Source of the DNA: Desulfobacterales bacterium
GTDB lineage: Bacteria > Desulfobacterota > Desulfobacteria > Desulfobacterales > JAHDSC01
Assembly (NCBI GenBank): GCA_018432925.1
Contig: JAHDSC010000062.1
Coordinates: 1 to 64,000 of the forward strand
Length of the DNA: 64,000 nt
Reading direction: 5' to 3'
A model generated the notes under the pieces. The model was not told where the DNA came from and ran no database searches. It saw only the letters and a program-made list of their open reading frames with translations. Position numbers and translations under genes: made by a program. Each line of letters opens with the position of its first letter. The first letter of the stretch is position 1. Below are positions 63 through 36,658 of the stretch, in pieces.

Positions 63-117
63 AAAAAGACGGATAAGCTCAAAGAATGCGCTGGGGAGAT
101 CAAAGTTCAATATCATG

Positions 118-825
118 TCCGGGATAAGAAACAACCATCCAAACAGTTACAAGAAGAAGATGGAATACGGATTTACACTGATTGAAATTCTGATTTCAAT
201 CTTCATTTTTGCTATCGTTTTAACTACTATTTTCGGCTCTTACCGGTCGGTACTGTCAAATGCCGAAACCATTGAGGTGGATACAAAATTTTACGAAATG
301 GCACAACATTGCCTTCATCGAATGATATCGGATCTGCAATCGATCCATATCGCGGCCCCTGCCGAATATTCCCCTCCCGGTTTTAATAATCCACCGGACC
401 CTTATCGGATTGCAGGAGATACATCGACGGTTGGAGGTAGTGATTTTTCGAGACTCCGATTCACCTCTTTGGCACATACACCGATCGGGAAAAACCGAGG
501 GATCGGAATTGCAGAAATCGTCTATTATGTTCAGCCTGACGGCGAAAACAATTTTTCACTCAAACGCTCAGACCGCATAGATCCTTACGAGCCTTTTGAG
601 GAAAAAAAAAGCGACCCCGTGCTCTGCAAACATGTTAAGTCGCTGATATTCAAATACCTGGATCAAGAGGGAATGGAATTTGAATCCTGGGACTCCGATT
701 CCGAAGAATTCAATTATGCCACTCCGCGAGCCGTCCGCATTAAACTTGAAATCGAAAATGAATCAGCCCCTCTTTTTTTCGAAACAATGGTATGCCTGCC
801 GGTATTCAGGAATGAAATGGGATAA
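118..825 (+). CDS. gspJ: Type II secretion minor pseudopilin GspJ
   Basis: This is a minor pseudopilin of the type II secretion system, part of the pseudopilus tip in the periplasm. A prepilin leader ends in Tyr-Gly, followed by the processed N-terminus FTLIEILIS with the conserved Glu at +5 and a 20-residue hydrophobic helix. The prepilin peptidase GspO/PilD should cleave after the Gly. The soluble part (about 200 residues) has GspJ length and ends in a strand-rich region. The start is uncertain: the frame is open to ATG 13, but ATG 118 (19-residue leader) or ATG 160 (4-residue leader) fit a prepilin better, and none has a strong ribosome-binding site. It is followed 10 bases later by gspK, so the two are co-transcribed. 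Confidence 0.85.
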   Translation, partial: SGIRNNHPNSYKKKMEYGFTLIEILISIFIFAIVLTTIFGSYRSVLSNAETIEVDTKFYEMAQHCLHRMISDLQSIHIAAPAEYSPPGFNNPPDPYRIAGDTSTVGGSDFSRLRFTSLAHTPIGKNRGIGIAEIVYYVQPDGENNFSLKRSDRIDPYEPFEEKKSDPVLCKHVKSLIFKYLDQEGMEFESWDSDSEEFNYATPRAVRIKLEIENESAPLFFETMVCLPVFRNEMG

Positions 826-835
826 TGGGTGCATC

Positions 836-1909
836 ATGCTGAAGAAAATGATGCGGAGCAACCGGGGAATCGCTCTTCTGATAACCTTGACGATTATTAC
901 GGTCCTTATCACGGTAGCATTGGAATTAAACAAAAAGGTTCGTTCAGCCGTTATTTTTTCGGCGACTTCTCGTGATACCCTGACTCTCACTCAAATGGCC
1001 TCTTCCGGAATTCATGCGGCGATGGCAATGCTTGTAAAAGATAAAATGGAATCAAACGTGGATTCTTTGCAGGAAGACTGGGCGAATTCGGAAAAAATCA
1101 ACGAAATTCTGCAATCTTTTCCATTTGAAGACGGAAAAATAACGGTAAAAATCAGTGATGAACTCGGAAGAATCCAGGTCAACGCGCTGGTAAAATTCCC
1201 CGAAGGGCGGGAATTTAATCAACCGCAAATGATCCTGTGGGAACGTTTCTTGAGACTGATAGCCGATCAGCATGAATCCCAGGAAAATTTTGAGCCGAAC
1301 ACAATTATCGATCCGCTGAAAGATTGGCTGGACTCGGGAGACGATGAAGCCATCACGGGCTTGAACGGAGCGGAATCCGAATATTACCAAGATCTTGTTT
1401 CTCCCTATCCATGCCGTAACGGTCCGATTCCTTATATTGGAGATCTTCTTCGAATCAAGGGAATTACAAAAGAATTTTATTACGGCACTGGCGACTCACC
1501 CGGTATCGTCGATTTAACGACCGTTTACGGCATATCGGATATTTGGGGAAATGTCGCTTCATATGAAGGGAAGATAAATATAAATACCGCCGAGCTTCCT
1601 GTGTTGGCATCTTTTTTGCAAATAGAAAACCGCGACCTTGCTCCGTTCATTTATGATTATCGAAAAGAAACCCAAGATTTAAGCTATATTCACGATCTGT
1701 CCGATCCGAATTGGTACAGGAAAATACCGGGCTTTGAGGACCTTAAAATCGACACCCGGCTGATCCGGACATCCAGTGATTTTTTCCGTATTGAAGCCAC
1801 TGCGGACCTACACGAAATTACAAAAACAATCATTACAGTGGTAAAAAGGGAAAAAACCGGTCAAACGGGAAAATGGTCATGCAGGGTCTTGTGTCGGCAG
1901 GCGGAATGA
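836..1909 (+). CDS. gspK: Type II secretion minor pseudopilin GspK
   Basis: GspK is the large minor pseudopilin that caps the pseudopilus tip together with GspI and GspJ. The N-terminus is a basic leader ending in Arg-Gly followed by IALLITLTIITVL. It lacks the Glu at +5, as is usual for GspK. The body (about 357 residues in all) carries the family signature INTAELPVL at about residues 245-255, part of the helix-hairpin-like alpha domain that sets GspK apart from smaller pseudopilins. ATG 836 puts the leader at 11 residues. ATG 812 would overlap gspJ by 14 bases and is the alternative. Confidence 0.88.
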   Translation: MLKKMMRSNRGIALLITLTIITVLITVALELNKKVRSAVIFSATSRDTLTLTQMASSGIHAAMAMLVKDKMESNVDSLQEDWANSEKINEILQSFPFEDGKITVKISDELGRIQVNALVKFPEGREFNQPQMILWERFLRLIADQHESQENFEPNTIIDPLKDWLDSGDDEAITGLNGAESEYYQDLVSPYPCRNGPIPYIGDLLRIKGITKEFYYGTGDSPGIVDLTTVYGISDIWGNVASYEGKININTAELPVLASFLQIENRDLAPFIYDYRKETQDLSYIHDLSDPNWYRKIPGFEDLKIDTRLIRTSSDFFRIEATADLHEITKTIITVVKREKTGQTGKWSCRVLCRQAE

Positions 1910-2184
1910 AATATATTGTGTTATTTTATGTCTTGCTCTTCAATCGATTCATTGGAAAACGTAAGATACGTCCGTCGATTGAAAAGAAAGAATCGCCGCG
2001 GGGAACCGGAAGGCATCTTCAATCATGCACATTCAATTCCTCCGAAGGACTTCTATGCAAGTCTATTCTCTTGCCGTTCCAGGATACCGGCACCGCGGTC
2101 TGCTTTGCCCGGAGCGCTGATTAACCTCAACCCGGCCTTAAAGACATGGTTTTTGACAACGCAATAAAATATTACTTAAAAATT
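1910..2184. other. Spacer between gspK and gspL
   Basis: About 275 bases with no convincing gene inside the type II operon. Short frames exist but have no ribosome-binding site or protein-like composition. No terminator hairpin was seen, so transcription probably runs through. Confidence 0.4.
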
Positions 2185-3621
2185 ATGAGCAGATCGATTC
2201 TCGGACTCGATATTCGGAATGATGCCGTATCGGCCGTTCTGTTGAATCACAGCCTAAAAGGAAATTCTATCGAAGCCCATATACATGTCCCGGTATCCGG
2301 CAAAGACATGGAGGAAGGAATCCGGGCGGCACTTAAAATAATCGTTGAAAAACTGGATATCACGCATGCCGTGTGTATCGCGTCCTTTCCTTCCGATCGG
2401 ATATCATTCAGAAATCTCAGCGTTCCGTTCAAGGAACAAAATAAAATCAGGCAAATGCTGCCTTTTGAACTCGAACCGACCCTACCGTTTCCAATCGATG
2501 ATCTTTTAATAGATTTTATGACTGTAAAATTATCCGATCATACCGATCTGATTACAGCGGCTGTCGAAAAATCCGCTATTCAATCCTATTTGGAGACGCT
2601 TGCCTCGTTTCATATCGACCCTGAAATCGTCACACCGTCCGGTTTTTCAACGGTGCTCAGCCTGGTCCGACTTTCCGATTTGTCTAAAAACACCTTGATC
2701 GTCGACATCGATAATCAAAAAAGCACCATCTTCGCGATTGCATCGGGGCAGATATCTCTTGTTCGTTCCCTTCCGATTGAAACGTCCGTTTCGCCCAGAG
2801 CAGAATTACTTTGCGCCAATATACAACGTACGATTTCAGCATTTGAAGAAATGTCCGGCTTTAACTTCAAGCCGGATGAGATCCGGGTTACCGGATGCGG
2901 ATTAAATGACTTGGGCCTTGATCAATCCATGCCCCGGATGTTGGGAATCCCGGTACGGAGAGTGGATCTGCTCCATGATACCGGCATTCCCCTAAAAGAA
3001 CGTCCGTCCTCTTGGGAACCGGTACAAATGGACAATGCATTCGCTCTGGCCCTCTTAAAAACCGAAGGGATCCAAGGGCTTAACTTTCGCAGAGGCCCTT
3101 TTGCGGCAAAACAAACCTGGGCGGAGCAAAAAAAAAGCATCATTAAAACAGGTGTTCTTGCATTTCTCGTCCTGATCCTGGCATTCTTTCATATCATTCT
3201 CGACAATCATTTTATGGAGACAAAGTTGAACCGGTTGAATCATCAGATGAATGATATTTTGAGAAATGCATTTTCGGATGTGAAAAAAATCGTCGACCCG
3301 CTGCAGCAGATGAGAATCAAAATACAAGATTCGAACAAATTTGCAGTGATCCCCGGAGAACCCGATAAAAATATACGAAACATTGACATACTGAATCACA
3401 TCAGCCGCCTCATACCGGATCAGACGGATGTTGAATTGACCGGTATTGTTATCGGAAAGGAAAGCGCCGTGATTTCGGGAACAACCGACACATTTAATTC
3501 CGTGGATGATATGAAAAACCGGCTGGAACAAAATGAATTTTTTAAAAAAGTTACGATCAGTTCCGCAAACATCGACAGGTCTGGAAACCGGGTCAATTTC
3601 AAGCTCAAAATCGACCTCTAA
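2185..3621 (+). CDS. gspL: Type II secretion inner-membrane platform protein GspL
   Basis: GspL links the cytoplasmic ATPase GspE to the inner-membrane platform. The N-terminal 300 residues have an actin-like/PilM fold, starting with a beta-strand SRSILGLDIR and including a phosphate-loop-like LIVDIDNQKST at about 170-180. A single membrane segment follows at about residues 321-343 (VLAFLVLILAFFHIIL). The periplasmic part ends in a ferredoxin-like fold, seen as the ELTGI...ISGTTDTFNSV...FKKVTIS pattern typical of GspL/PilN C-termini. The start is taken at ATG 2185; an in-frame ATG at 2146 would add 13 residues. It precedes gspM, its expected binding partner. Confidence 0.82.
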   Translation: MSRSILGLDIRNDAVSAVLLNHSLKGNSIEAHIHVPVSGKDMEEGIRAALKIIVEKLDITHAVCIASFPSDRISFRNLSVPFKEQNKIRQMLPFELEPTLPFPIDDLLIDFMTVKLSDHTDLITAAVEKSAIQSYLETLASFHIDPEIVTPSGFSTVLSLVRLSDLSKNTLIVDIDNQKSTIFAIASGQISLVRSLPIETSVSPRAELLCANIQRTISAFEEMSGFNFKPDEIRVTGCGLNDLGLDQSMPRMLGIPVRRVDLLHDTGIPLKERPSSWEPVQMDNAFALALLKTEGIQGLNFRRGPFAAKQTWAEQKKSIIKTGVLAFLVLILAFFHIILDNHFMETKLNRLNHQMNDILRNAFSDVKKIVDPLQQMRIKIQDSNKFAVIPGEPDKNIRNIDILNHISRLIPDQTDVELTGIVIGKESAVISGTTDTFNSVDDMKNRLEQNEFFKKVTISSANIDRSGNRVNFKLKIDL

Positions 3622-24563: not shown

Positions 24564-24599
24564 ACAAGACCCCGATGGAATCAACCCACGGGGTCTTGT
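24564..24599 (-). terminator. Rho-independent terminator of the autotransporter gene
   Basis: A perfect 11-bp stem, ACAAGACCCCG (24564-24574) with CGGGGTCTTGT (24589-24599), and a 14-base loop. In the minus-strand RNA it is followed by TATTTTAT. It lies about 80 bases beyond the autotransporter stop. Its stem matches the hairpin at 21855-21890 in all but one pair. Confidence 0.75.
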
Positions 24600-24680: not shown

Positions 24681-27600
24681 TCAGAACCTGTACATGATCT
24701 CCCCGATGATACCGTGGGCGCAATAATCGTCGCGCAGCTCTCCGTTGTATCTTAGGGAAGTACCGAGTCCACCCTTATGCTGAAAGCTCAGGCCCGCACC
24801 CAGTACGAGGGCGTTCTGTTCCGCATCCTGCCCCTCGATACGGAAGGCCACGTTCGGCGAACCCGCAAAAGAGGTCGTGATAATCTGATCGTCGATATCA
24901 TAGTCATATTTCCACCCAACACTTACTTCAGGAAGAAAACGGCCGTTTTGAGTGGAAAATTCCCTGCTCAGGCGCAGTCCCAACTCGGATACGAGAAAGT
25001 CGGTCTGACGATCGCCGATTCGTAAGTTGAGGTCATCCGCTCCGGATTCCTCAAAGCTCTCCTCTTCAAGGCGCGCATACTGCAAGGAACCAAAAAATCG
25101 CAGCATCCAGGCATTCAAAGGAACAGTATACCCGGCTCCGAGGAAGGCGGACCATACGTTTCCGTCGTAGTCGCTGTTGGCGTTGCGACGTATGCCGCCG
25201 ATTTGAATCACCCGATCATTGTTATAATCGTTTACGCCGCAGGTTAATGCGCCTTCCGCATAGAAGCGATCCTTGAAAAACATCCCGTACAGTGATCCAT
25301 AGGTACTCCTGATGTCACCGTCACCCCGATTGCTGTCCAGGTTTATGTCGGTGTAGGAATATCCGATGTTGATGCCGGCGAGCAACCAGTCGGTCAGAAG
25401 ATAATCCAATCCAAGCGTTGCGCCTCCCATCCAGTAGTCATAGCCGGTGTGTGCCACATCCCCGTCCTGATCTCCCCACTGACGAAAACCCTGCAACCAC
25501 AGGTCGTATCTTCTGGGCTCGGAAGTTCGTTCCCTGACGCTCAAAAACCGACCAAGTTCGGCATCCGATCCGTTGTAGGCCAGAAGCGGATGATCCGAAC
25601 CCGACTCAACAGGGGACGAGCTTTCACGAACATGATTCATCCGCTGCTGCAGCACCTGGACATAGTTACGGACATTGGCAAAGGTTACCTGAGCGCCTTT
25701 GTCGTAAAGATCGGGACTCAGGCTTGAAAATGCCTCACTGAATTCATCCCCCGATAAAAGCTGGATCTCGCCCAGCACCAGTGAGAGGTCTCCGGTTGCG
25801 GAAGGTGCAATCTGGTCCAAGTATCGCGCAATCTTCAGTTCTACGTCATTTGTAGCCACCGTGGTGAAACTCTTGGCTTGCACCTCCACTTCCACGATGT
25901 CGGATGTGTCGTCTTCGAGGTAGTTGGTTCCGAAGCTCAACAATGCGGTGGGTTCTGGAAGAAGTTCCGCGCTGAACCTGTCTCCCTCCATGTAGTTGCC
26001 CGCCTCCAGGACATCAAAAGTGATTCCGTTAATGTAGACGCCCGGTCCCCTGAACACCCGCAAGGTGCCTCCAAGGTCCGTGTCGCCGGCGAAAACGAGT
26101 TTTCCGTGGGTTCCGTCGCCGTTTATCCGGATTTCGAAAAGCCCGTCATCGGCAAACCGGTAGCCGTCTCCATATCCGTCGTTGATCGCGAGTGTTCCCT
26201 GGTGGACGGTGATGCGATGCATGGTAGTCAGATCAGCCAGGGTAAAGGTTCCGGCTCCCTGTTTGGTGGCGGTTTCAAAGGCCAGAAGATCGACATCGAC
26301 CGCACCTTCTCCGTCAAAGATGAGATCGTCGGTTCCCGTCCCCGCATCCACGGCCCGGGTTACCCCGGCACCGCCGATAAACATCAGCGAATCATCGTCT
26401 ATTCCGAGATCAATGCTCCCGTCCACCAATGACCCATCGCCGAGAATGACCTCATCGTTGCCGTCGCCGGAGGTGATACCGATGCCGGGCACCGGGTCGG
26501 CGTCGTTCGACGAGACGGTGGTGATGATGCTGCCGTCGTTCCGGATGGTATCATCTCCTCCACCGGTATCAATCCCTGCAGCAGTCGCTGTAAAACTCTG
26601 TCTTACGCTCGATCCCGAGGCGCTGGTAACCGCTTCCGCCTCGACCCGGATGGTGCCTTCGTTTCGAACAACGTCATTTCCGTCGCCCGTTACAATTCCA
26701 CCGGCCTCGGCCCTTGCCTCTGCCTCCGCCGCCGCCGCTCCGCAGTAAGAAGCCGCCGTCGTATCCGCATCGGCACTGGCTTTTACGACAAGCTGCCCCG
26801 AATTTTCCACAATCGCGTTACCGTTTCCCAGTTCGATCCCCTTGGCAACCGCCGTCGCAACCGCCGACGAGCTTCCGTCTCTCGCAGCAGAAAACGTGTA
26901 TTGATCGGCCGGAGTGATGACTTCTCCCTCATCGTCTACCTCCAGCGCCTTCAGGTCACCGGGAAGTCCCTGGGTCAGGGTGATCGTGCCGGTGCCGGAA
27001 TCAAAGGCCTCGATGCGGGTGTAAAAATCCGCGTTGTCACCCGTAAGGAAACGGACCCATTTCCCGACCACGTTGCCCGAGGGTTGACCGATGAGGGATG
27101 CGTCCACGAACGTTGTCGATCCGCTCGCGCTGTCTCCCGTAACGGTCGAAGTATCGTCCGGTGATCCGATTACGGCTCCCCGGGCATAGGAGGTTGAATC
27201 CGCCGAGGCCTCTACCCGGATGATTCCGCTGTTAAAAACGTGATCTTCCTCGTCCCCCGCCTGCACGCCCCAACCATATGCCTGGGCTATTGCATCCGCG
27301 TCCGCGTCGGTTTCAGACCGATCATACTCGGCTGCGGCCGTCGCAGCAACGGTCGACTGTGAGGATACCAGGAGATCACCTGCGTTGAAAGCCACATTGT
27401 TCCCTTGGCCAAGATCCAGGCTCCAGGCAATAGCATCGGCAATGGCATCGACCGAATTCGTCGTCGAGGAAAAAAAGACGGCCGTTACGCCATCCACATC
27501 TGCCGTGGAGACCGCTTCGGCATGAATGGAACCCTCCTCGGCATTGAAAAACTCATCATCACCGGAACCCATATCGACCCCCAAAGAATCGCTGGAGGCC

Positions 27601-30600
27601 TCGAAAAAAAGATTCTGCTCGGCGTTTCCGAAGACCACATACACTCGATCCGTGGATGAGACACCGGCCGTGGATTGGGTAAGGATATCGCCATAGTTGC
27701 CGAATGAGTCACCGGACTGCCCCCCCCTCATGCCGACAGATACCGCATCTGCTCTTCCTCTTGCCTGGATATCCGCCTCCCCGAAATTGAGGGACCAACG
27801 GGTAGCGTCGATGGCGCTGTTCGCCGCGACATCGATTGTACCCAGATTGATAATGGTGTCGCTTCCCCCGCCCAAGGTGTAGATATCGCCTATCAAGATT
27901 CCCCCGGAAGGAAGCGATTCTGCCAGGGTAAACGTTCCCGTTTCAGAATCAAATGCTTCCACGGTGGTGAGAAAACCGGCAGACGCGCCTGATTGGATAA
28001 GGACCGGCCGGCCGATGATTGCCGCCGGATCTTCCCCCTTGCGTGAGATATCGGTAAACGTGTTGGTACCCCCGTTACTGGAGTCCGAGACACATGCCCG
28101 GTCGCTCCCCTCGATGCCGACGGCATCCGCTCCGGATGCGATACGGGTATCCACATCGATATTTCCGCCGAGGGTGACGGTGACCGATTCAATCAAGTTG
28201 TTGGCCGAAACGGAGACCGAACCCGAATTCACGATCTCGTCATCGCCGCTGCCTCCCACCATTCCCTTTGCCCGGACCGAAGCGGTTGTAGAGGCATCCA
28301 CTGTCGTACGCCCTCCGACGGTTACGGTTACCTCGGTAATATCTGCCTCCTTGTCTCCGTAGTCATAGATGGTATATGTGGCGCCCGGGGACAGATCACA
28401 GGTGAGCGGGTCTCGTAAGGTTAACCGTCCGGTCAGCGGATCGAACGCCATGATCTGAGTAAAGAAATCCGGATTCTCTCCTCCAGAGATACGAATCCAC
28501 TTGCCTTCCAGTTCCTGGGCAGATTCCGTGACGAGTGATTGATCGACCAGTGTCCGTAATCCACTGCCCGCCTGTTCCGAAACAGTCGACGCAGTCTCCG
28601 GACCTCCGGCGAATACAAGTACGTTTCCTTCATTGTTGATGGTATCGTTACCTTCACCGCCCGTGAGGCCCGTCGCACCGGCGTTAAGCAGGATTCCCAC
28701 TTTTCCATCAACGTTTCCGCCGCTGCCGAAGGTTCGAGTCGCCGAAACGACACGAGGGGCGGCTTCCACGAAGACCGTGTCCGTATTCGCGATTTCATCG
28801 TCGCCGGCACCGGTGTCGACCCCGCTCGCATGGGCCAGGGCCAGAGTTCTGGCATCTGAGTAAGCCGGTCCCGAGCCGCTCACCGTGAGAGAATGAACGG
28901 TCACCGTCCCGCCTGCCTCGACGGTTACCAGGCTGGTGTTCATTATTTCGTCATTGCCTGATCCCGCCGTGATCCCCTTGGCGCAGCTGTCGGCGGCTGC
29001 GAAATTGGATGAAGCGGCCACGGTGTGTGCGTCACCAAAGATGGAATCCGCGAGGGCAATAGTAGTTGAACGCACGGTCGTATCGGCAGTCGCTGTTGCG
29101 TTGACAGCGCCATCGTTTTCGATGATATCATTTCCGGCATCGCCGCTGATCCCCGTTGCCGCGGCTTTACCCTGTGCTGAGGACGCAGTGAATGCAGCGG
29201 CATACGCATCTCCAAACGTGGAATCCGAAATGGACACTGAGGAAGATGCGACGATAAGTGTGCTTTCGGCGATTGAATCAAGATACCCCACGTTTTCGAT
29301 CATGTCGCTATCGCCTCCGCCCGTGATGCCTGTGGTGAATGCGGATCCCTCGGCACCGGCGGTCGCAAACGCAGCGCTTCTCGCGCTCCCGAACGTTGCG
29401 TCCGCATTGGAGTATGAGCTTGAGGATACCGTGCCGTCCGATGTGGCTGTCACCATAAGAGCGCCGTTGTTGATGATCACGTCCATACCGTCGCCGCCGT
29501 CCATTCCGGTGGATTCCATCCGCCTGACAGCCGAGGCATCGGATACGGCCTTGCTCGAGGCGCTCCCGAACGTGACGTCCGCATTCACATTAGAAGTTGC
29601 CGAAACCGAACCGGTGGAGGTGGCGTCCACAGTGATGAGGCCCGCGTTGGTGATCACGTCCATGCCGTCGCCGCCGTCAATTCCGGTGGCCTCCCCGGCC
29701 ACGTCGGCCGAGGCATCGGATACGCCCTTGCTGGATACACCGCCGAAGACCACGTCTGAATCTACATTCGATGTGGAAGTAACCGAGCCGTTGGCCGTGG
29801 CGGTTACCGTGAGGGTGTTACTGCTGGTTATCGTATCATTGTCGGCACCGCTTTCGATTCCTGTTGCATCGGCCCTCACCGTTGCGGAGGCATCGGATAC
29901 GGCCTTCCCGGCAGCTGAACCGAATGCGGTTATACTGTCGGCAGTGGAGGTCGATTCAGTGGTTGCCGAGGTAGTAGCGGCTACGGTAATCGGGCCATCG
30001 CTGATGATCACGTCCGCATCGGTCTCATTGGAATCCATGCCTGATTCTCCACCCCGTATGCCGATAGCGGCGGCAATTACATCGGTCGCGGCGCCCGCCA
30101 CGGATTCTCCCGAACTCGCTCCTGCAATATTGAACCCCGTGTTGGTTGCCGAGATGGCTTGGGTAGAAGCACCGGAATAAGCGTTCAGAGACATGGCCAC
30201 CGTACTGTGAATATAGTCGTCTCCCTCACCGCCGTCGATTCCAATAGCAAGAGAATCAGCGACTGTTTCCGTTTTTGCCCGCGCCTCCTGTACATTCACG
30301 CCGAGGCCAAGTCCGGTGACGGTCGAGGAACGCGACGAACCGGTCACAAAAGAATCCGCGGTGACGTCAAGCGTACCCCCGGCCGTGATGATGTCACCGC
30401 CAGTGCCGCCGTCAATGCCTCGTGCGATGGTCTCTGCTGTCGATGAACTGTCTGCCGAGGCCGACTGAAGTGCCGCTCCGACGGATAAGATGTTGTAGTT
30501 ACTCGCAGTGCTTACCGCCGTACTTTTCGAGCGTGCCTTGACGGCGATTGCGTTATCGGTCGTGATCTCATCGCCATCTCCACCGCCGTCGATTCCCGTG

Positions 30601-33600
30601 GCAAGCGATGTGGCGAGTGCGGAGGCATCGGACTCCGCTCCTCCTTCCGAGGCCCCCAACGTCAGGGAAACCGAGGTGGTTTCGCCTATGCCCACGGCTT
30701 CGGAACTCGAAAAAGCGTTGATAGGACCGGCGTTGAAGATCCGGTCTCCGCCTCGGCCGGTTTCTATACCGGCGACAGTCGTCATCGCCGTGGCTGAAGC
30801 GTCTGAGGAAGCATCACCGAAACTCCCGCCGATGGTGATCCCGATATCAATCGTTTCACTTGCTGCTCTGGCTTTGGCCATTGCATCCGTCTTTGCCGGA
30901 TCGGAAAAGTCACAGCCCACGGTAATGCTGCCGGTGTTGATGATGTCGTCATTGCCGGAACCGCCCCTGATGCCGGCGGCTGTCACAACCGCGGTAGCCG
31001 ACGTGTCTGAGGAAGACTCGCCCAGACTGGCTCCGGCGGTCACTGAGATATCTACGGTAGTGCTCCTGGAATCGGCATTTGCCATGCCTCCCGTCCCCAT
31101 GGGATCGCCTCCGACGGTAATGTCACCGGAGTTGATGATCCGGTCATCGCCCGACCCGCCGCTTATGCCGGCGGCTTCCGCCTCGGCCAGGGCGGAGGCG
31201 TCTGAGGAGGCTTCACTCATATTCAGCCCTGCGGCGATACCGACGGTCACGGTCGTGGATTCGGCCCCGGCATCGGCCATCAGGCCCATTGTTTCGAGCC
31301 CTCCGACGGTAATTGCCGCCGTATTGGTGATATCGTCGTCATCGCCACCACCTTCGATACCGGTGGCAATCGCACGGGCGGTGGCGGATGAGTCGCCCAC
31401 ACCGATCGTGTCGGCCGCTCCCGCTCCTATGGTAACGCCTACCGAAGTACTGTCGGATCGTGCCTCCGCTTTTGCGGTGGATTTGATTTCGCTGGCGTTG
31501 TCGATGGTGTCGTTTCCGAAACCGCCATCGATACCGGCCGAACAGGCAATGCTCGAAGCGGAAGATTCAGCCACTGCGGCACCGCTCGCCATACCCACGG
31601 CACCGGTTCCCTGGACCGAAACGCTTTCCGCGTCGGTAAGCGACCTGGCACACGTCGATATGGGGTTAGCCGAGGAAGTGATCGTATCGTCGCCTTCGCC
31701 GCCATATATGCCGATGCTCTGCGATATCGCCTCCGCGGAACTGTCGGCAACCGATTTGCCCTCCGCCAGGCCCTTCATGGCTCCGGCCAATCCTACACCG
31801 ACGGCGGTTGCCTGTGCATCCGCGAGAGAATTGATATCGATCTCACCTTCGTTGATGATGGCGTCATCATTTCCTCCGCCGTCGATCCCGGTCGACCGGG
31901 CAAGCGAGACGGAGCTAGAATCGCTCAATGCGGCTCCCTCGGCCTCACCCTCCGCAGCCACCGTTATTCCCACGGTAACCGCGACGGTGTCTGTGTCGGC
32001 ATGAGCGGCAGCCGATATCTTTCCCCGGTTGGTAATCTCATCCATGCCGTCATCGCCGCTGATCCCGGTTGCCTCGGCTTCGGCCGTGGTAGTGGCTTTG
32101 CTCAGCGCTTCTCCACCGGCCTGGCCCCGCAAGGTCCCCGCGACCGTTACGGAGACCGCCGTACTGGTCGCATCCGCATCCGAAAAGAGTCGGATCAGAC
32201 CGCTGTTGTCGATGATGTCGTCGTCATCACCGCCCTCAATACCCGTAGCCTCGGAATTCGCCGTTGTGGAGACGTCACTCAGAGACGATCCTTCGGCTGT
32301 GCCATTGAGGCCAACAGTAACTTCTGCGGCAACTGCCACCCCCTCGGCATGAGAATCCACGTCTGCTGTAATGCCGGCCGTGTTGGTGATAATATCCGAA
32401 CCGCCTGCACCGTCGATCCCGGTTGCCTCGGCTCCGGCCGTGGTAATGGCTTTGCTCAGTGCCTGCCCCTCTGACGAGCCGTTGAGGTTGCCGGTGATGT
32501 CCAGTGAAGCGGCAACCCCTATCGCTTTTGCATCGACTTCATCTTCCCCGAGTTCCTGTTTCATCAGGATGATGGCTCCTTCATTGGAGATGATGTCGTT
32601 TCCTTCACCCCCGTCGATACCGATGGCTGTCGAAAGAGCCGTTGCGCCGGCGTCGCTCATCGACGATCCTTCCGATTCGCCGACCATGTTGCCTGATACA
32701 TTTAAAGATGCCGCGATACCGTCCGCACTCGATGACGGCAAAAGTTTTATGATCCCGCTATTGGCAATGTCGTCATTATCTCCGCCACCATCGATTCCGG
32801 TTGCCTCGGCTTCGGCCAGGACCGTGGCATTACTCGCAGCGGTACCCGTGACGTCGCCGGCGGCAACCCCCTTGATGGCCACGTTTCCCGAAACATTCAG
32901 GCTCGCAGAGACACCTAGGGCACTCGCATCGACTTCGTCGACTCCCGTATCCTGATCCATCAGGGTGATGTTGCCGCTGTTGCGGATCTTGTCCTTCCCG
33001 CCGTCACCTTCGATACCGGTGGCAATCGCCCGGGCGGCCACGCCGGTGTTGCTCGCCGCAGAGCCGGAAACGTCCGCGGTTGATGCGCCTTTGAAACTGA
33101 GTGCGGCTGAGACATTGAGTTCTGCCGTCACCCCCGTGGCATCTGCTGTCGAGAGAAGGCGAATATCTCCTTCATTGTCGATCTGGTCATCACCCAGACC
33201 CCCATCAAGTCCCAGCGCCGTTGCCCGGGCGGTTACACTGCTGTCGCCGATCGCCCCGCCTTCTATGTCCGCCTGTGCATTTCCATTGATGGCGAGAACC
33301 GAGGTAAAATTCAAGCCGGCGGCCACACCTGTCGCGGAGGAACCCGCCTCAAGCCCGACAATGTCTCCCGTATTGATGATCGTATCATTTCCTTCACCGG
33401 CCGCGATTCCAACAGCAAGCGAGTCCGCCCTCACATCGGCCTTGCTTACGGCTTTACCCGTGGCGTTCACCTTTGCATCATCCTTGAATGACACACCCGC
33501 CGTGGTGCTGAGGGACGCCGCAACTCCGGTTACATCGGATTTCGCCGATAGCGAAGCGATGTCCCCCTCGTTGATAATCGTGTCACGGCCTTCACCACCG

Positions 33601-35666
33601 TCAATCCCCACGGCCGCTACTTCCGCCGTGACGCTGGTGTCGCTCAAGGCCGCTCCTGAGATATCCCCTTCGTTTTCACCCTTGAAAGCAACGGATCCGG
33701 CAATATCCAGGGAAGCGGCTACGCCTGTCGCGGTTGAGTCCGATGTAAGATTGATGAAGTCGCCGGTGTTGGTGATCTCGTCATCCCCCGCGCCACCCTC
33801 GATAGCAACGGTAACGGCCTGGGCGGTGACCTTGGCGTCACTGATTGCCGCACCCGAGACATCCACATTTGCGCCTCCTTGAACAGCCAATCCCGCCGCC
33901 ACATTCAGGGAAGCCGCTACCCCCGTGGCGTCCGATTCCGCCCGCAGGAGATTGAAGTTGCCGTCGTTTACGATGATATCGTTTCCATCGCCACCGTCAA
34001 TTCCTTTGGCTCCTGAATACGATGCCGTATCGGCATCGCTCAGTGCCGTTCCCTCGACTTCTCCGGATACGTCACCCTTAAAAGCAACGCTTCCGGCGAT
34101 ATCGAGGGAAGCCGATACTCCGGTAGCGTCTGAATTGCTTAGGACTGCAACGAAGTTGCTCGTGTTGCCGATGATGTCGTTTCCCGCATCGCCTTCGATT
34201 GCCGTAGCCGCAGCCATGGCCGTCACACTGCTATCGCTGAGGGCCTGTCCCGCGGCATTGCCTTCCGAGTCACCCTTGAATGATCCTGTGGCAGCAATAT
34301 TCAGAGAAGCCGATACTCCCGTGGCATTCGCTTCCGCCTGAAAAAGGTCGAGGCCGCCCTCGTTGTTGATGGTATCGTTACCGTCACCACCGACCATTCC
34401 CGTGACCGTTGCCGCCGATTTGACATGGGTGTCACTCGCCGCTTTACCCTCGACGTCACCGGTCGCTTTCCCTTCGAAAGTGGCGGACCCGGCTATATCC
34501 AGTCCGGCGGCGACCCCGACGGCATCCGATTGGGCAACAAGGCGGATGGCTCCACCATTGCCGATATCGTCCGCGTCGCCCCCGCCGTCTATCCCGGTAG
34601 CCACGGACGCAGCCGTTACGCCGGCGTCACTCAGTGCGGCGCCGGTGGCGTTTCCTCCTTCTTTGATAGACAGACCAACATTCAAATCCGCACTGACGGC
34701 AGTTGCATCTGAACCAACTGCCGCAAAAATGCCGCCGTAGTTGGTGATTGTATCGCTTCCAAGTCCGCCTTCAATCCCGATGGCCGTAGCATTCGCTACG
34801 GCACTGGAGTCGCTGAGTGCGGAACCCTCCGATTCGCCTTCCAGCGTTCCCGCAACCTCCAGACCGACACTCACCGCCGTTGCACTCGCATCAACCGCAT
34901 CGTCGCCGGCCCCATTCATCAAGGTGATTGTGCCTTCATTGACAATCGTATCGTCACCGGCCCCACCATCGATTCCGGTGGCCGTTGCATCGGCCGTCAC
35001 GCTCGCGTCACTTACCGCCTTGCCTTGCACATCGCCTTTCATCGTTCCGGCCACATCCAGGGAGACCGCCGCACCGGTCGCCTCGGAGGATGAAAAAAGC
35101 GTGATGGCACCACGGTTGTCAATATCGTCGCTGTCATCACCTCCGTCAATCCCGGTGGCCATGGACGCAGCCGTTACGCCGGCGTCACTCAATGCCCCAC
35201 CTTCGGCTGTGCCCTCCGCGGTAATTCCGATGTCCACACTCACTCCGACAGCGGTTATATCCGCCGCGGCATTCGCAACGATTTCCCCAAAATTGATTAT
35301 TCCATCGGTTCCGGCCCCCCCGCTGATCCCCGTTGCTTCCGCACTCGCCGAAACCCCGGAGTCACTCAAAGCGGTTCCCGAAGCGTCTCCTGCTACGGCG
35401 CCATCAATGATCCAAGAAACCCCAAGTGCTTCGTCGGATATGTAATCTTCCGCATGGATCGATGCCCAACCTTCTATCATGATAATATCGTTACCCGCAC
35501 CTCCGATGATCCCGTCGCAGTTAAAATCCAAGGTGATGACATCATCTCCTGGTGTGCCGTAAATCGTGTCGGCATGTACCGTCACTTGAGTAACGGGAAA
35601 AATGGTAAAAAGAGAAGTAAAAACCACCAGGACAGATGCGATCAGCAAGACGTGGCGGCGACACAT
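24681..35666 (-). CDS. Giant repeat-rich autotransporter adhesin (3,661 residues)
   Basis: A very large type V secreted protein. The signal peptide spans residues 1 to about 32 (VLLIASVLVVFTSLFTIFPVTQ, then VHA). The passenger (about 40-3060) is built of about 45 solenoid-like units of 55-75 residues. Each has a block such as ATGIDGGAGDDTIVNEG, which resembles a single RTX calcium loop (GGxGxDxI), followed by Ala/Val/Gly/Asp/Ser strands. Three inserts of about 75-85 residues interrupt it. A junction region (about 3150-3360) leads to the C-terminal beta barrel (about 3375-3661), which ends in an aromatic residue (MYRF) as barrel proteins do. Secretion would use Sec and then BAM, with bamD nearby. 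AGGGAGGAAAACGAT before ATG 35666 fixes the start; the frame is open to 35909 through the riboswitch. The passenger is acidic and almost free of Cys. Adhesion is inferred from architecture and from the c-di-GMP riboswitch. Confidence 0.9.
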   Translation of the reverse strand: MCRRHVLLIASVLVVFTSLFTIFPVTQVTVHADTIYGTPGDDVITLDFNCDGIIGGAGNDIIMIEGWASIHAEDYISDEALGVSWIIDGAVAGDASGTALSDSGVSASAEATGISGGAGTDGIINFGEIVANAAADITAVGVSVDIGITAEGTAEGGALSDAGVTAASMATGIDGGDDSDDIDNRGAITLFSSSEATGAAVSLDVAGTMKGDVQGKAVSDASVTADATATGIDGGAGDDTIVNEGTITLMNGAGDDAVDASATAVSVGLEVAGTLEGESEGSALSDSSAVANATAIGIEGGLGSDTITNYGGIFAAVGSDATAVSADLNVGLSIKEGGNATGAALSDAGVTAASVATGIDGGGDADDIGNGGAIRLVAQSDAVGVAAGLDIAGSATFEGKATGDVEGKAASDTHVKSAATVTGMVGGDGNDTINNEGGLDLFQAEANATGVSASLNIAATGSFKGDSEGNAAGQALSDSSVTAMAAATAIEGDAGNDIIGNTSNFVAVLSNSDATGVSASLDIAGSVAFKGDVSGEVEGTALSDADTASYSGAKGIDGGDGNDIIVNDGNFNLLRAESDATGVAASLNVAAGLAVQGGANVDVSGAAISDAKVTAQAVTVAIEGGAGDDEITNTGDFINLTSDSTATGVAASLDIAGSVAFKGENEGDISGAALSDTSVTAEVAAVGIDGGEGRDTIINEGDIASLSAKSDVTGVAASLSTTAGVSFKDDAKVNATGKAVSKADVRADSLAVGIAAGEGNDTIINTGDIVGLEAGSSATGVAAGLNFTSVLAINGNAQADIEGGAIGDSSVTARATALGLDGGLGDDQIDNEGDIRLLSTADATGVTAELNVSAALSFKGASTADVSGSAASNTGVAARAIATGIEGDGGKDKIRNSGNITLMDQDTGVDEVDASALGVSASLNVSGNVAIKGVAAGDVTGTAASNATVLAEAEATGIDGGGDNDDIANSGIIKLLPSSSADGIAASLNVSGNMVGESEGSSMSDAGATALSTAIGIDGGEGNDIISNEGAIILMKQELGEDEVDAKAIGVAASLDITGNLNGSSEGQALSKAITTAGAEATGIDGAGGSDIITNTAGITADVDSHAEGVAVAAEVTVGLNGTAEGSSLSDVSTTANSEATGIEGGDDDDIIDNSGLIRLFSDADATSTAVSVTVAGTLRGQAGGEALSKATTTAEAEATGISGDDGMDEITNRGKISAAAHADTDTVAVTVGITVAAEGEAEGAALSDSSSVSLARSTGIDGGGNDDAIINEGEIDINSLADAQATAVGVGLAGAMKGLAEGKSVADSSAEAISQSIGIYGGEGDDTITSSANPISTCARSLTDAESVSVQGTGAVGMASGAAVAESSASSIACSAGIDGGFGNDTIDNASEIKSTAKAEARSDSTSVGVTIGAGAADTIGVGDSSATARAIATGIEGGGDDDDITNTAAITVGGLETMGLMADAGAESTTVTVGIAAGLNMSEASSDASALAEAEAAGISGGSGDDRIINSGDITVGGDPMGTGGMANADSRSTTVDISVTAGASLGESSSDTSATAVVTAAGIRGGSGNDDIINTGSITVGCDFSDPAKTDAMAKARAASETIDIGITIGGSFGDASSDASATAMTTVAGIETGRGGDRIFNAGPINAFSSSEAVGIGETTSVSLTLGASEGGAESDASALATSLATGIDGGGDGDEITTDNAIAVKARSKSTAVSTASNYNILSVGAALQSASADSSSTAETIARGIDGGTGGDIITAGGTLDVTADSFVTGSSRSSTVTGLGLGVNVQEARAKTETVADSLAIGIDGGEGDDYIHSTVAMSLNAYSGASTQAISATNTGFNIAGASSGESVAGAATDVIAAAIGIRGGESGMDSNETDADVIISDGPITVAATTSATTESTSTADSITAFGSAAGKAVSDASATVRADATGIESGADNDTITSSNTLTVTATANGSVTSTSNVDSDVVFGGVSSKGVSDASADVAGEATGIDGGDGMDVITNAGLITVDATSTGSVSATSNVNADVTFGSASSKAVSDASAVRRMESTGMDGGDGMDVIINNGALMVTATSDGTVSSSSYSNADATFGSARSAAFATAGAEGSAFTTGITGGGDSDMIENVGYLDSIAESTLIVASSSVSISDSTFGDAYAAAFTASSAQGKAAATGISGDAGNDIIENDGAVNATATADTTVRSTTIALADSIFGDAHTVAASSNFAAADSCAKGITAGSGNDEIMNTSLVTVEAGGTVTVHSLTVSGSGPAYSDARTLALAHASGVDTGAGDDEIANTDTVFVEAAPRVVSATRTFGSGGNVDGKVGILLNAGATGLTGGEGNDTINNEGNVLVFAGGPETASTVSEQAGSGLRTLVDQSLVTESAQELEGKWIRISGGENPDFFTQIMAFDPLTGRLTLRDPLTCDLSPGATYTIYDYGDKEADITEVTVTVGGRTTVDASTTASVRAKGMVGGSGDDEIVNSGSVSVSANNLIESVTVTLGGNIDVDTRIASGADAVGIEGSDRACVSDSSNGGTNTFTDISRKGEDPAAIIGRPVLIQSGASAGFLTTVEAFDSETGTFTLAESLPSGGILIGDIYTLGGGSDTIINLGTIDVAANSAIDATRWSLNFGEADIQARGRADAVSVGMRGGQSGDSFGNYGDILTQSTAGVSSTDRVYVVFGNAEQNLFFEASSDSLGVDMGSGDDEFFNAEEGSIHAEAVSTADVDGVTAVFFSSTTNSVDAIADAIAWSLDLGQGNNVAFNAGDLLVSSQSTVAATAAAEYDRSETDADADAIAQAYGWGVQAGDEEDHVFNSGIIRVEASADSTSYARGAVIGSPDDTSTVTGDSASGSTTFVDASLIGQPSGNVVGKWVRFLTGDNADFYTRIEAFDSGTGTITLTQGLPGDLKALEVDDEGEVITPADQYTFSAARDGSSSAVATAVAKGIELGNGNAIVENSGQLVVKASADADTTAASYCGAAAAEAEARAEAGGIVTGDGNDVVRNEGTIRVEAEAVTSASGSSVRQSFTATAAGIDTGGGDDTIRNDGSIITTVSSNDADPVPGIGITSGDGNDEVILGDGSLVDGSIDLGIDDDSLMFIGGAGVTRAVDAGTGTDDLIFDGEGAVDVDLLAFETATKQGAGTFTLADLTTMHRITVHQGTLAINDGYGDGYRFADDGLFEIRINGDGTHGKLVFAGDTDLGGTLRVFRGPGVYINGITFDVLEAGNYMEGDRFSAELLPEPTALLSFGTNYLEDDTSDIVEVEVQAKSFTTVATNDVELKIARYLDQIAPSATGDLSLVLGEIQLLSGDEFSEAFSSLSPDLYDKGAQVTFANVRNYVQVLQQRMNHVRESSSPVESGSDHPLLAYNGSDAELGRFLSVRERTSEPRRYDLWLQGFRQWGDQDGDVAHTGYDYWMGGATLGLDYLLTDWLLAGINIGYSYTDINLDSNRGDGDIRSTYGSLYGMFFKDRFYAEGALTCGVNDYNNDRVIQIGGIRRNANSDYDGNVWSAFLGAGYTVPLNAWMLRFFGSLQYARLEEESFEESGADDLNLRIGDRQTDFLVSELGLRLSREFSTQNGRFLPEVSVGWKYDYDIDDQIITTSFAGSPNVAFRIEGQDAEQNALVLGAGLSFQHKGGLGTSLRYNGELRDDYCAHGIIGEIMYRF
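26440..35560 (-). repeat. About 45 tandem 55-75-codon repeats in the autotransporter passenger
   Basis: The repeat hallmark is A-T/V/I-G-I-D/E/S-G-G-x-G-x-D-x-I-x-N-x-G, seen about 45 times from the N-terminus to about residue 3060. It is accompanied by variants of ALSDSSVTA and VAASLDIAGS. Neighbouring units are similar enough at the DNA level (for example the two units near 29,470-29,710) to allow recombination and array-length change. The repeats also generate long antisense frames that are not genes. Confidence 0.85.
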
Positions 35667-35741
35667 ATCGTTTTCCTCCCTTTGCTTCAAAAAGGCGGGG
35701 TTCGGGGAATCTTCCCTTCCCTGGTTTGAAATACACGGCAT

Positions 35742-35780
35742 GAAAAAAGCCGGGTCACCTTTAACTTCGGCAACCCGGCT
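35742..35780 (-). terminator. Riboswitch expression-platform terminator
   Basis: A perfect 8-bp stem: minus-strand AGCCGGGT (35780-35773) pairs with ACCCGGCT (35755-35748) and is followed by TTTTTC. The 5' arm lies inside the c-di-GMP aptamer, so aptamer and terminator are mutually exclusive. The autotransporter start is about 75 bases further on. Confidence 0.85.
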
Positions 35781-35841
35781 GTCTGCTTCCAGACCCATGG
35801 CTTTCCGTCCCACCCTCGCGGATGGTTTGGTTTTATCGAAG
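35765..35841 (-). ncRNA. c-di-GMP-I (GEMM) riboswitch
   Basis: Read on the minus strand, the aptamer has a closing stem CTTCG (35841-35837)/CGAAG (35769-35765), then AAACCATCC with a GCGA tetraloop and GGGTGGGACGGAAAGCC. A second hairpin GGGTCT/AGAC follows, then CCGGGTTGCCGAAG. This is the GEMM-I layout, including the GNRA loop and the GGGAC-AAAGCC joining segment. One base differs from the common form (GGACGG where GGACGC is usual). Ligand binding should keep the terminator at 35742-35780 from forming, so c-di-GMP is predicted to switch the autotransporter on. Confidence 0.88.
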
Positions 35842-35852
35842 CATAAGAAACG

Positions 35853-36000
35853 CAAAAAGCCCCGAACGGAGCGGTCAGACACTCCGTCGAGGCTTATTGG
35901 GTACAACATCGGGATAAAACATTATCCCTCGGTAAGCTATATGCTGGAAACCGGACCAATTGGTAAACCGGGTCCGGACCATGTTATGCAGGTTCAGCAA
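35853..36000 (-). ncRNA. Unidentified structured leader RNA upstream of the c-di-GMP riboswitch
   Basis: The minus-strand RNA has several strong hairpins in a row. The palindromes GGTCCGGACC (35971-35980) and ACCAATTGGT (35955-35964) can also pair as CCGGACC/GGTCCGG. GGGATAA/TTATCCC (35911-35928) comes next. A 9+5-bp stem AAGCCTCGACGGAG/CTCCGTTCGGGGCTT follows and runs into TTTTTGCG (about 35853-35896), a terminator-like end. There is too little room between that hairpin and the GEMM aptamer for a separate promoter, so this may be an extra attenuator in the same leader. No known riboswitch class was recognised. Confidence 0.5.
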
Positions 36001-36658
36001 TAGCGAATACATTATTTAGAAAACTTAGTTAAAAAATCATTAAAACAAATTTTAAAAAGGCGAATCATCCGCGATGTAAGGCTTCCGCAAGTAATCGCTC
36101 GTTACTTTCGGTTACAGGGTCAGCTTTCGCTTTTGAGAATGACGGTGCCATTTCTGAACTGCTTTGTACCAAACTTGGTGGAATGGTTCCTCGGTTCTCC
36201 TTAGATTTTCGAATTACCGGGCATCCTCCCGCTGACCTTGATCCAGATTACGGCATATCCTCCATCTAATTTTTGCATATTTAATCGGGTACTTATTGAA
36301 CTGCCACTGATTGCAAGCAAATCATATGCCATATTTGGCGCCTTGAATCTTTTTCTAATGATTCTGGATGGTTAAGAAATTCATAGATATTCATATTGCC
36401 GAAATAAGGAATTTTTTACATAAGTTATATGTGCTTATATGTATTCATTTACATAGGTTATCCGACCGGATGATGAGTTTATAGAAAAACAGGATACTTG
36501 GAATGAAAAAATCTATTTATGCCCTTCTGAAAGTGCAAAACTTGTTTCGGTAACACCTTGAAGATGGCATTCCTCGCGTTACGAGCCTTCGGCCTTTACC
36601 TCGCTGCGGCTGCATGCAAGAAAAAACGCTGCTATCAAACAACCGATCAACCTCGTTT
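36001..36658. other. Spacer without recognised gene
   Basis: About 660 bases, AT-rich in part. It presumably holds the promoter for the adhesin leader (AT-rich stretch 36,005-36,060 on the minus strand), but no clear -35/-10 pair was found. No open frame with a ribosome-binding site was seen. Confidence 0.35.

Follow-up and report, generated by a model that had tools for sequence, protein, structure and literature searches.

A GEMM-I riboswitch with a GEMM-Ib specificity base upstream of a giant autotransporter gene in a Desulfobacterales bacterium

The autotransporter gene and its leader

The stretch of DNA analysed here (positions 1 to 64,000 of contig JAHDSC010000062.1, 64,000 nucleotides; the window) carries a giant gene on its minus strand, which starts with an ATG at 35666, ends at 24681 (24681-35666) and encodes a protein of 3,661 amino acids. 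About the first 33 residues were judged by eye to form a predicted signal peptide, and residues 3389-3641 (24744-25502, minus strand) constitute a C-terminal autotransporter beta-barrel (PF03797, 203.8 bits, E 4.9e-60). The passenger (aa ~90-3300) consists of repeats with two periods, 59 and 66 residues, that bear GGxGxD-I motifs, and it is very high in Ala, Gly, Ser, Thr and Asp. Searches of the passenger against Pfam and NCBIfam gave no match, and no adhesive domain was matched; an AlphaFold model of aa 100-420 was uninformative (pLDDT 34.8). With type Va autotransporters the protein shares the signal peptide, the long repetitive passenger and the C-terminal barrel ending in YRF, whereas the unmatched passenger with its GGxGxD-I repeats of ~59-66 residues sets it apart. 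From these sequence features we infer export by the type Va route and action at the cell surface, and the protein plausibly has a role in attachment. The initial annotation had spoken of a giant autotransporter adhesin: the barrel supports the autotransporter class, while the word adhesin derives from the architecture only, an adhesive domain being unmatched.

A Shine-Dalgarno sequence, GGGAGG (35675-35680, minus strand), lies 8 nt before the ATG. On the 3' side of the gene, a terminator-like hairpin with a T-rich tail (AAGACCCCG / CGGGGTCTT; 24566-24597, minus strand), together with a catalase gene beyond it, suggests that the autotransporter gene forms a one-gene, monocistronic unit.

Upstream of the gene, cmscan found the sole Rfam riboswitch of the whole window, a match to RF03167 at 35840-35765 (minus strand; 64.4 bits, E 6.5e-13). 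The RF01051 model was also significant (35841-35766, minus strand; 63.8 bits), and both scores exceed the respective gathering cut-offs of 59 and 35. The proposal, made from the letters of the sequence, that a GEMM-I aptamer stands directly before the giant gene was thus borne out, as was the RF01051 search put forward as its check. The anticipated GNRA tetraloop, GGGAC joining segment and closing stem are all present, as a GCGA loop, the segment GGGAC..GGAAAGCC and a P1 stem (35764-35842, minus strand) in which GCUUCG (35842-35837) pairs with CGAAGU (35769-35764). When the aptamer segment was folded alone, it adopted the canonical GEMM-I structure with a P1 of 6 bp. Covariation also backs the aptamer pairs: in an alignment with 119 distinct relatives 96.5% of cells were paired as compared to 75.8% in shuffles. 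The riboswitch feature is real, well beyond chance.

Key bases were assigned by alignment to relatives and to Vc2, with the sequence and numbering of the latter as the basis for positions 20, 21, 46 and 47. The specificity base at position 20 is A (35831), the GEMM-Ib type. C21 (35830) and C22 (35829) pair with G46 (35805) and G45 (35806), respectively, and position 47 is A (35804). Across the 119 relatives, pair 21-46 is C-G in 72 and G-C in 47, with no mispair.

No promoter was recognised for the leader, the promoter scan giving 1 site where 1.9 were expected. A hairpin that resembles an imperfect terminator and carries a T tract (35893-35855, minus strand) ends ~14 nt upstream of the aptamer and leaves little space for a promoter; the same arrangement occurs at an A20 locus of a second genome (L046 in G011). 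The ~766 nt upstream of the aptamer (35894-36658, minus strand) hold neither a clear gene nor an Rfam match.

Overlap of aptamer and terminator

Folding and an overlap scan revealed an intrinsic terminator (35748-35780, minus strand) with a stem of 12 bp, formed by a 5' arm at 35780-35769 (AGCCGGGTTGCC) and a 3' arm at 35759-35748 (GGTGACCCGGCT) and followed by a U tract (35743-35748). The folding energy of the terminator is -22.3 kcal/mol. Because its 5' arm coincides with the 3' strand of P3/P1 in the aptamer, a bound ligand is expected to prevent termination. An overlapping terminator with its 5' arm inside the aptamer had been foreseen, albeit with an arm of 8 nt, shorter than the one found.

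Left free, the whole leader folds with the terminator at -41.7 kcal/mol; a fold constrained to keep the aptamer reaches -32.2 kcal/mol. The z-score of the leader fold is -3.26, and one of 200 dinucleotide shuffles folded equally well. Upon stepwise extension of the transcript in silico, the aptamer fold prevailed at lengths of 82-92 nt, and the terminator took over at about nt 94. The two predicted structures are mutually exclusive by folding and overlap scan, which supports the ON logic originally suggested, in which the bound aptamer blocks termination. As modelled, the leader is a genuine transcriptional ON riboswitch.

The use of the aptamer 3' strand for the terminator is common among RNAs of the C21-G46 subtype, where it was found in 20/22 Geobacterales A20 RNAs, in all five Geobacterales G20 RNAs and in 25/49 RNAs from the order to which the window belongs. 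Among RNAs of the G21-C46 subtype, an aptamer-overlapping terminator is rare (6/49 in all).

In the mechanism that we propose, RNA polymerase would produce the aptamer first. Once a cyclic dinucleotide is bound, 3',3'-cGAMP being the most likely one, the aptamer 3' strand would stay paired in P3/P1, the terminator would be blocked by the bound aptamer and the 11-kb autotransporter gene would be transcribed. Without ligand, the aptamer 3' strand would pair with the downstream GGTGACCCGGCT, and transcription would stop ~77 nt before the start codon. Mutually exclusive aptamer and terminator structures have been described for the pilM leader of G. metallireducens, a cGAMP ON switch in which C75 is sequestered (PMC9262584), and the window leader has the same platform type.

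Recurrence of the pair and possible kinship of the RNA

Homologues of the barrel (E <= 1e-45) were detected in 9 of 389 genomes of the order and in further members of the phylum. A GEMM-I RNA lies just upstream of the giant autotransporter gene in the genome of the window and in three others (G069, G059 and G402). The leaders of these three are G20, and the A20 signature is confined to the window copy. Before the giant genes of G227, G288, G313, G086 and G587 and before two weaker homologues in G589, no GEMM-I RNA was found; the homologues of G051, G109 and G550 are truncated by contig ends, and that of G622 has a broken frame. Judged from these leaders, the pairing of a giant autotransporter with such a riboswitch recurs and its predicted ligand differs.

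When ~85,000 named species were searched for the pattern of A20, C21-G46 and a GCGA loop, at least 117 stretches were obtained, nearly all of them from Geobacterales/Desulfuromonadales among the matches listed. We aligned 125 aptamer matches from six Geobacterales genomes and from the window's own order and calculated a tree of 119 aptamers over ~78 columns. The window RNA grouped with 19 Geobacterales A20 RNAs with a support of 0.87, or 0.88 when position 20 was left out. Support for this 20-member group was 0.998 without the P1b columns, and the grouping was lost once the P2 hairpin was also removed. The tree is suggestive of a kinship of the window RNA with the Geobacterales A20 RNAs.

Ligand preference and candidate sources of cGAMP

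The ligand named in the initial annotation was c-di-GMP. The aptamer is indeed of the GEMM-I type, but the ligand assignment became doubtful, as position 20 carries the GEMM-Ib (cGAMP) determinant, A, instead of the G of canonical c-di-GMP-I RNAs. Geobacter A20 RNAs make up the cGAMP-selective GEMM-Ib class that binds 3',3'-cGAMP, and an A20G mutation shifts the selectivity of the Gmet_0970 RNA from cGAMP to c-di-GMP (PMC6456294). In tested cases, Geobacter RNAs combining A20, C21-G46 and a GCGA loop prefer cGAMP ~1200- to 1600-fold (PMC6456294, PMC8835794). A20 is not always exclusive, a response to both cGAMP and c-di-GMP being reported for the omcST riboswitch (PMC6456294). The window riboswitch is probably cGAMP-preferring, and on balance we favour a GEMM-Ib-type transcriptional ON riboswitch with 3',3'-cGAMP as its most likely ligand.

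With regard to the synthesis of this ligand, the genome (97.8% complete) contains seven GGDEF-domain matches, of which five are canonical, their selectivity residue being Asp, and two are divergent. The Ser-type Hypr GGDEF pattern was not found in it, and in the 14 A20 genomes of the order (389 genomes scanned) none was seen at a Ser codon; an apparent Ser-type match in G174 was rejected because it encodes Cys, Trp or stop. One of the two divergent matches is a HAMP-GGDDF protein (G000:C27:12359-13699; L062/L259). Its homologues in five Geobacter-group genomes agree with what is reported for GSU1937, which synthesises cGAMP and carries Ser together with a GGDDF motif (PMC8835794). Where the motif is readable, the selectivity residue is Asn in the homologues of the window's own order and Ser in the five Geobacter-group genomes. 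In-frame TGA codons considered in some of these homologues proved to be the terminal stop. The HAMP-GGDDF protein occurs in 4/14 genomes with A20 RNAs versus 28/375 genomes (Fisher p 0.021), a post hoc comparison that ignores phylogeny and serves as a lead only. Separately, a SMODS CD-NTase gene was noticed beside a gene for a small membrane protein (L078:838-2016 and 335-826, minus strand), an arrangement that resembles a two-gene CBASS defence unit.

It is possible, though we doubt it, that the leader is a c-di-GMP ON switch after all, in which A20 would weaken c-di-GMP binding without eliminating it. With five canonical GGDEF proteins and no Ser-type Hypr enzyme found, c-di-GMP is the sole cyclic dinucleotide whose synthesis in this cell is clearly provided for; G20 occurs in all five other GEMM-I RNAs of the genome and in the homologous leaders of G069, G059 and G402. 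Against this, A20, C21-G46 and the GCGA loop together are the feature set of the cGAMP-selective Geobacter RNAs. An element in decay, in which A20 abolished c-di-GMP recognition without gain of a physiological ligand, so that the leader would be mostly terminated, would agree with the lack of an identified cGAMP source and of a recognised promoter. We regard it as improbable, with the paired positions, the tetraloop, C21-G46 and a perfect 12-bp overlapping terminator all intact and the gene open across 11 kb. The top-scoring family, RF03167, might imply that the RNA belongs to the c-di-GMP-I-GGC variants and prefers another ligand; this appears very improbable, as RF01051 scores nearly equally and positions 20 and 47 are both G in the RF03167 consensus as opposed to A20 and A47 in the window, and a class assignment from the top match was rejected for the latter reason.

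The preferred cGAMP reading can be extended to a wider scenario, in which cGAMP signalling would operate outside the Geobacterales and would need no Ser-type Hypr enzyme. The cGAMP would come from the GSU1937-like Asn HAMP-GGDDF protein or from the CBASS-type CD-NTase, and the leader, unlike its homologues, would have exchanged c-di-GMP for cGAMP. Taken jointly, these steps are speculative and rather unlikely to hold in full.

Among known systems, the Geobacter GEMM-Ib riboswitches (Gmet_0970, GSU1761 pgcA, pilM) resemble the window RNA in A20, C21-G46, the GCGA loop, a short P3, a terminator made from the aptamer 3' strand and ON logic. They differ in that the window host stands outside the Geobacterales set found here and lacks a detected Ser-type Hypr cyclase, the window ligand being a prediction; moreover, their targets in Geobacter are cytochrome, pilus or polysaccharide genes and not a giant autotransporter. 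The c-di-GMP-I riboswitches Vc2 and B. thuringiensis Bc2/cap have the same aptamer architecture but the canonical G20. Bc2 is likewise an ON switch upstream of an adhesion gene, so that class I c-di-GMP riboswitches turning adhesins on are already known, and riboswitch control by c-di-GMP is also known for C. difficile surface proteins (PMC6366702). Our searches of open-access literature brought up no study devoted to a c-di-GMP or cGAMP riboswitch that controls an autotransporter, nor any dealing with cGAMP riboswitches of Desulfo- genera.

If the preferred reading is true, cGAMP control of a surface protein would reach beyond the Geobacterales and beyond electron-transfer genes, and homologous autotransporters of related bacteria would answer to c-di-GMP in some species and to cGAMP in another by virtue of one base. 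A change of ligand within a recurring regulatory connection could thereby be tested directly. The ligand cannot be read from the Rfam names c-di-GMP-I and c-di-GMP-I-GGC.

Tandem arrays of ~4-6 GEMM-I aptamers were additionally observed in related genomes (G010:C109:690-1206; G017:C75 and C79; G039:C102).
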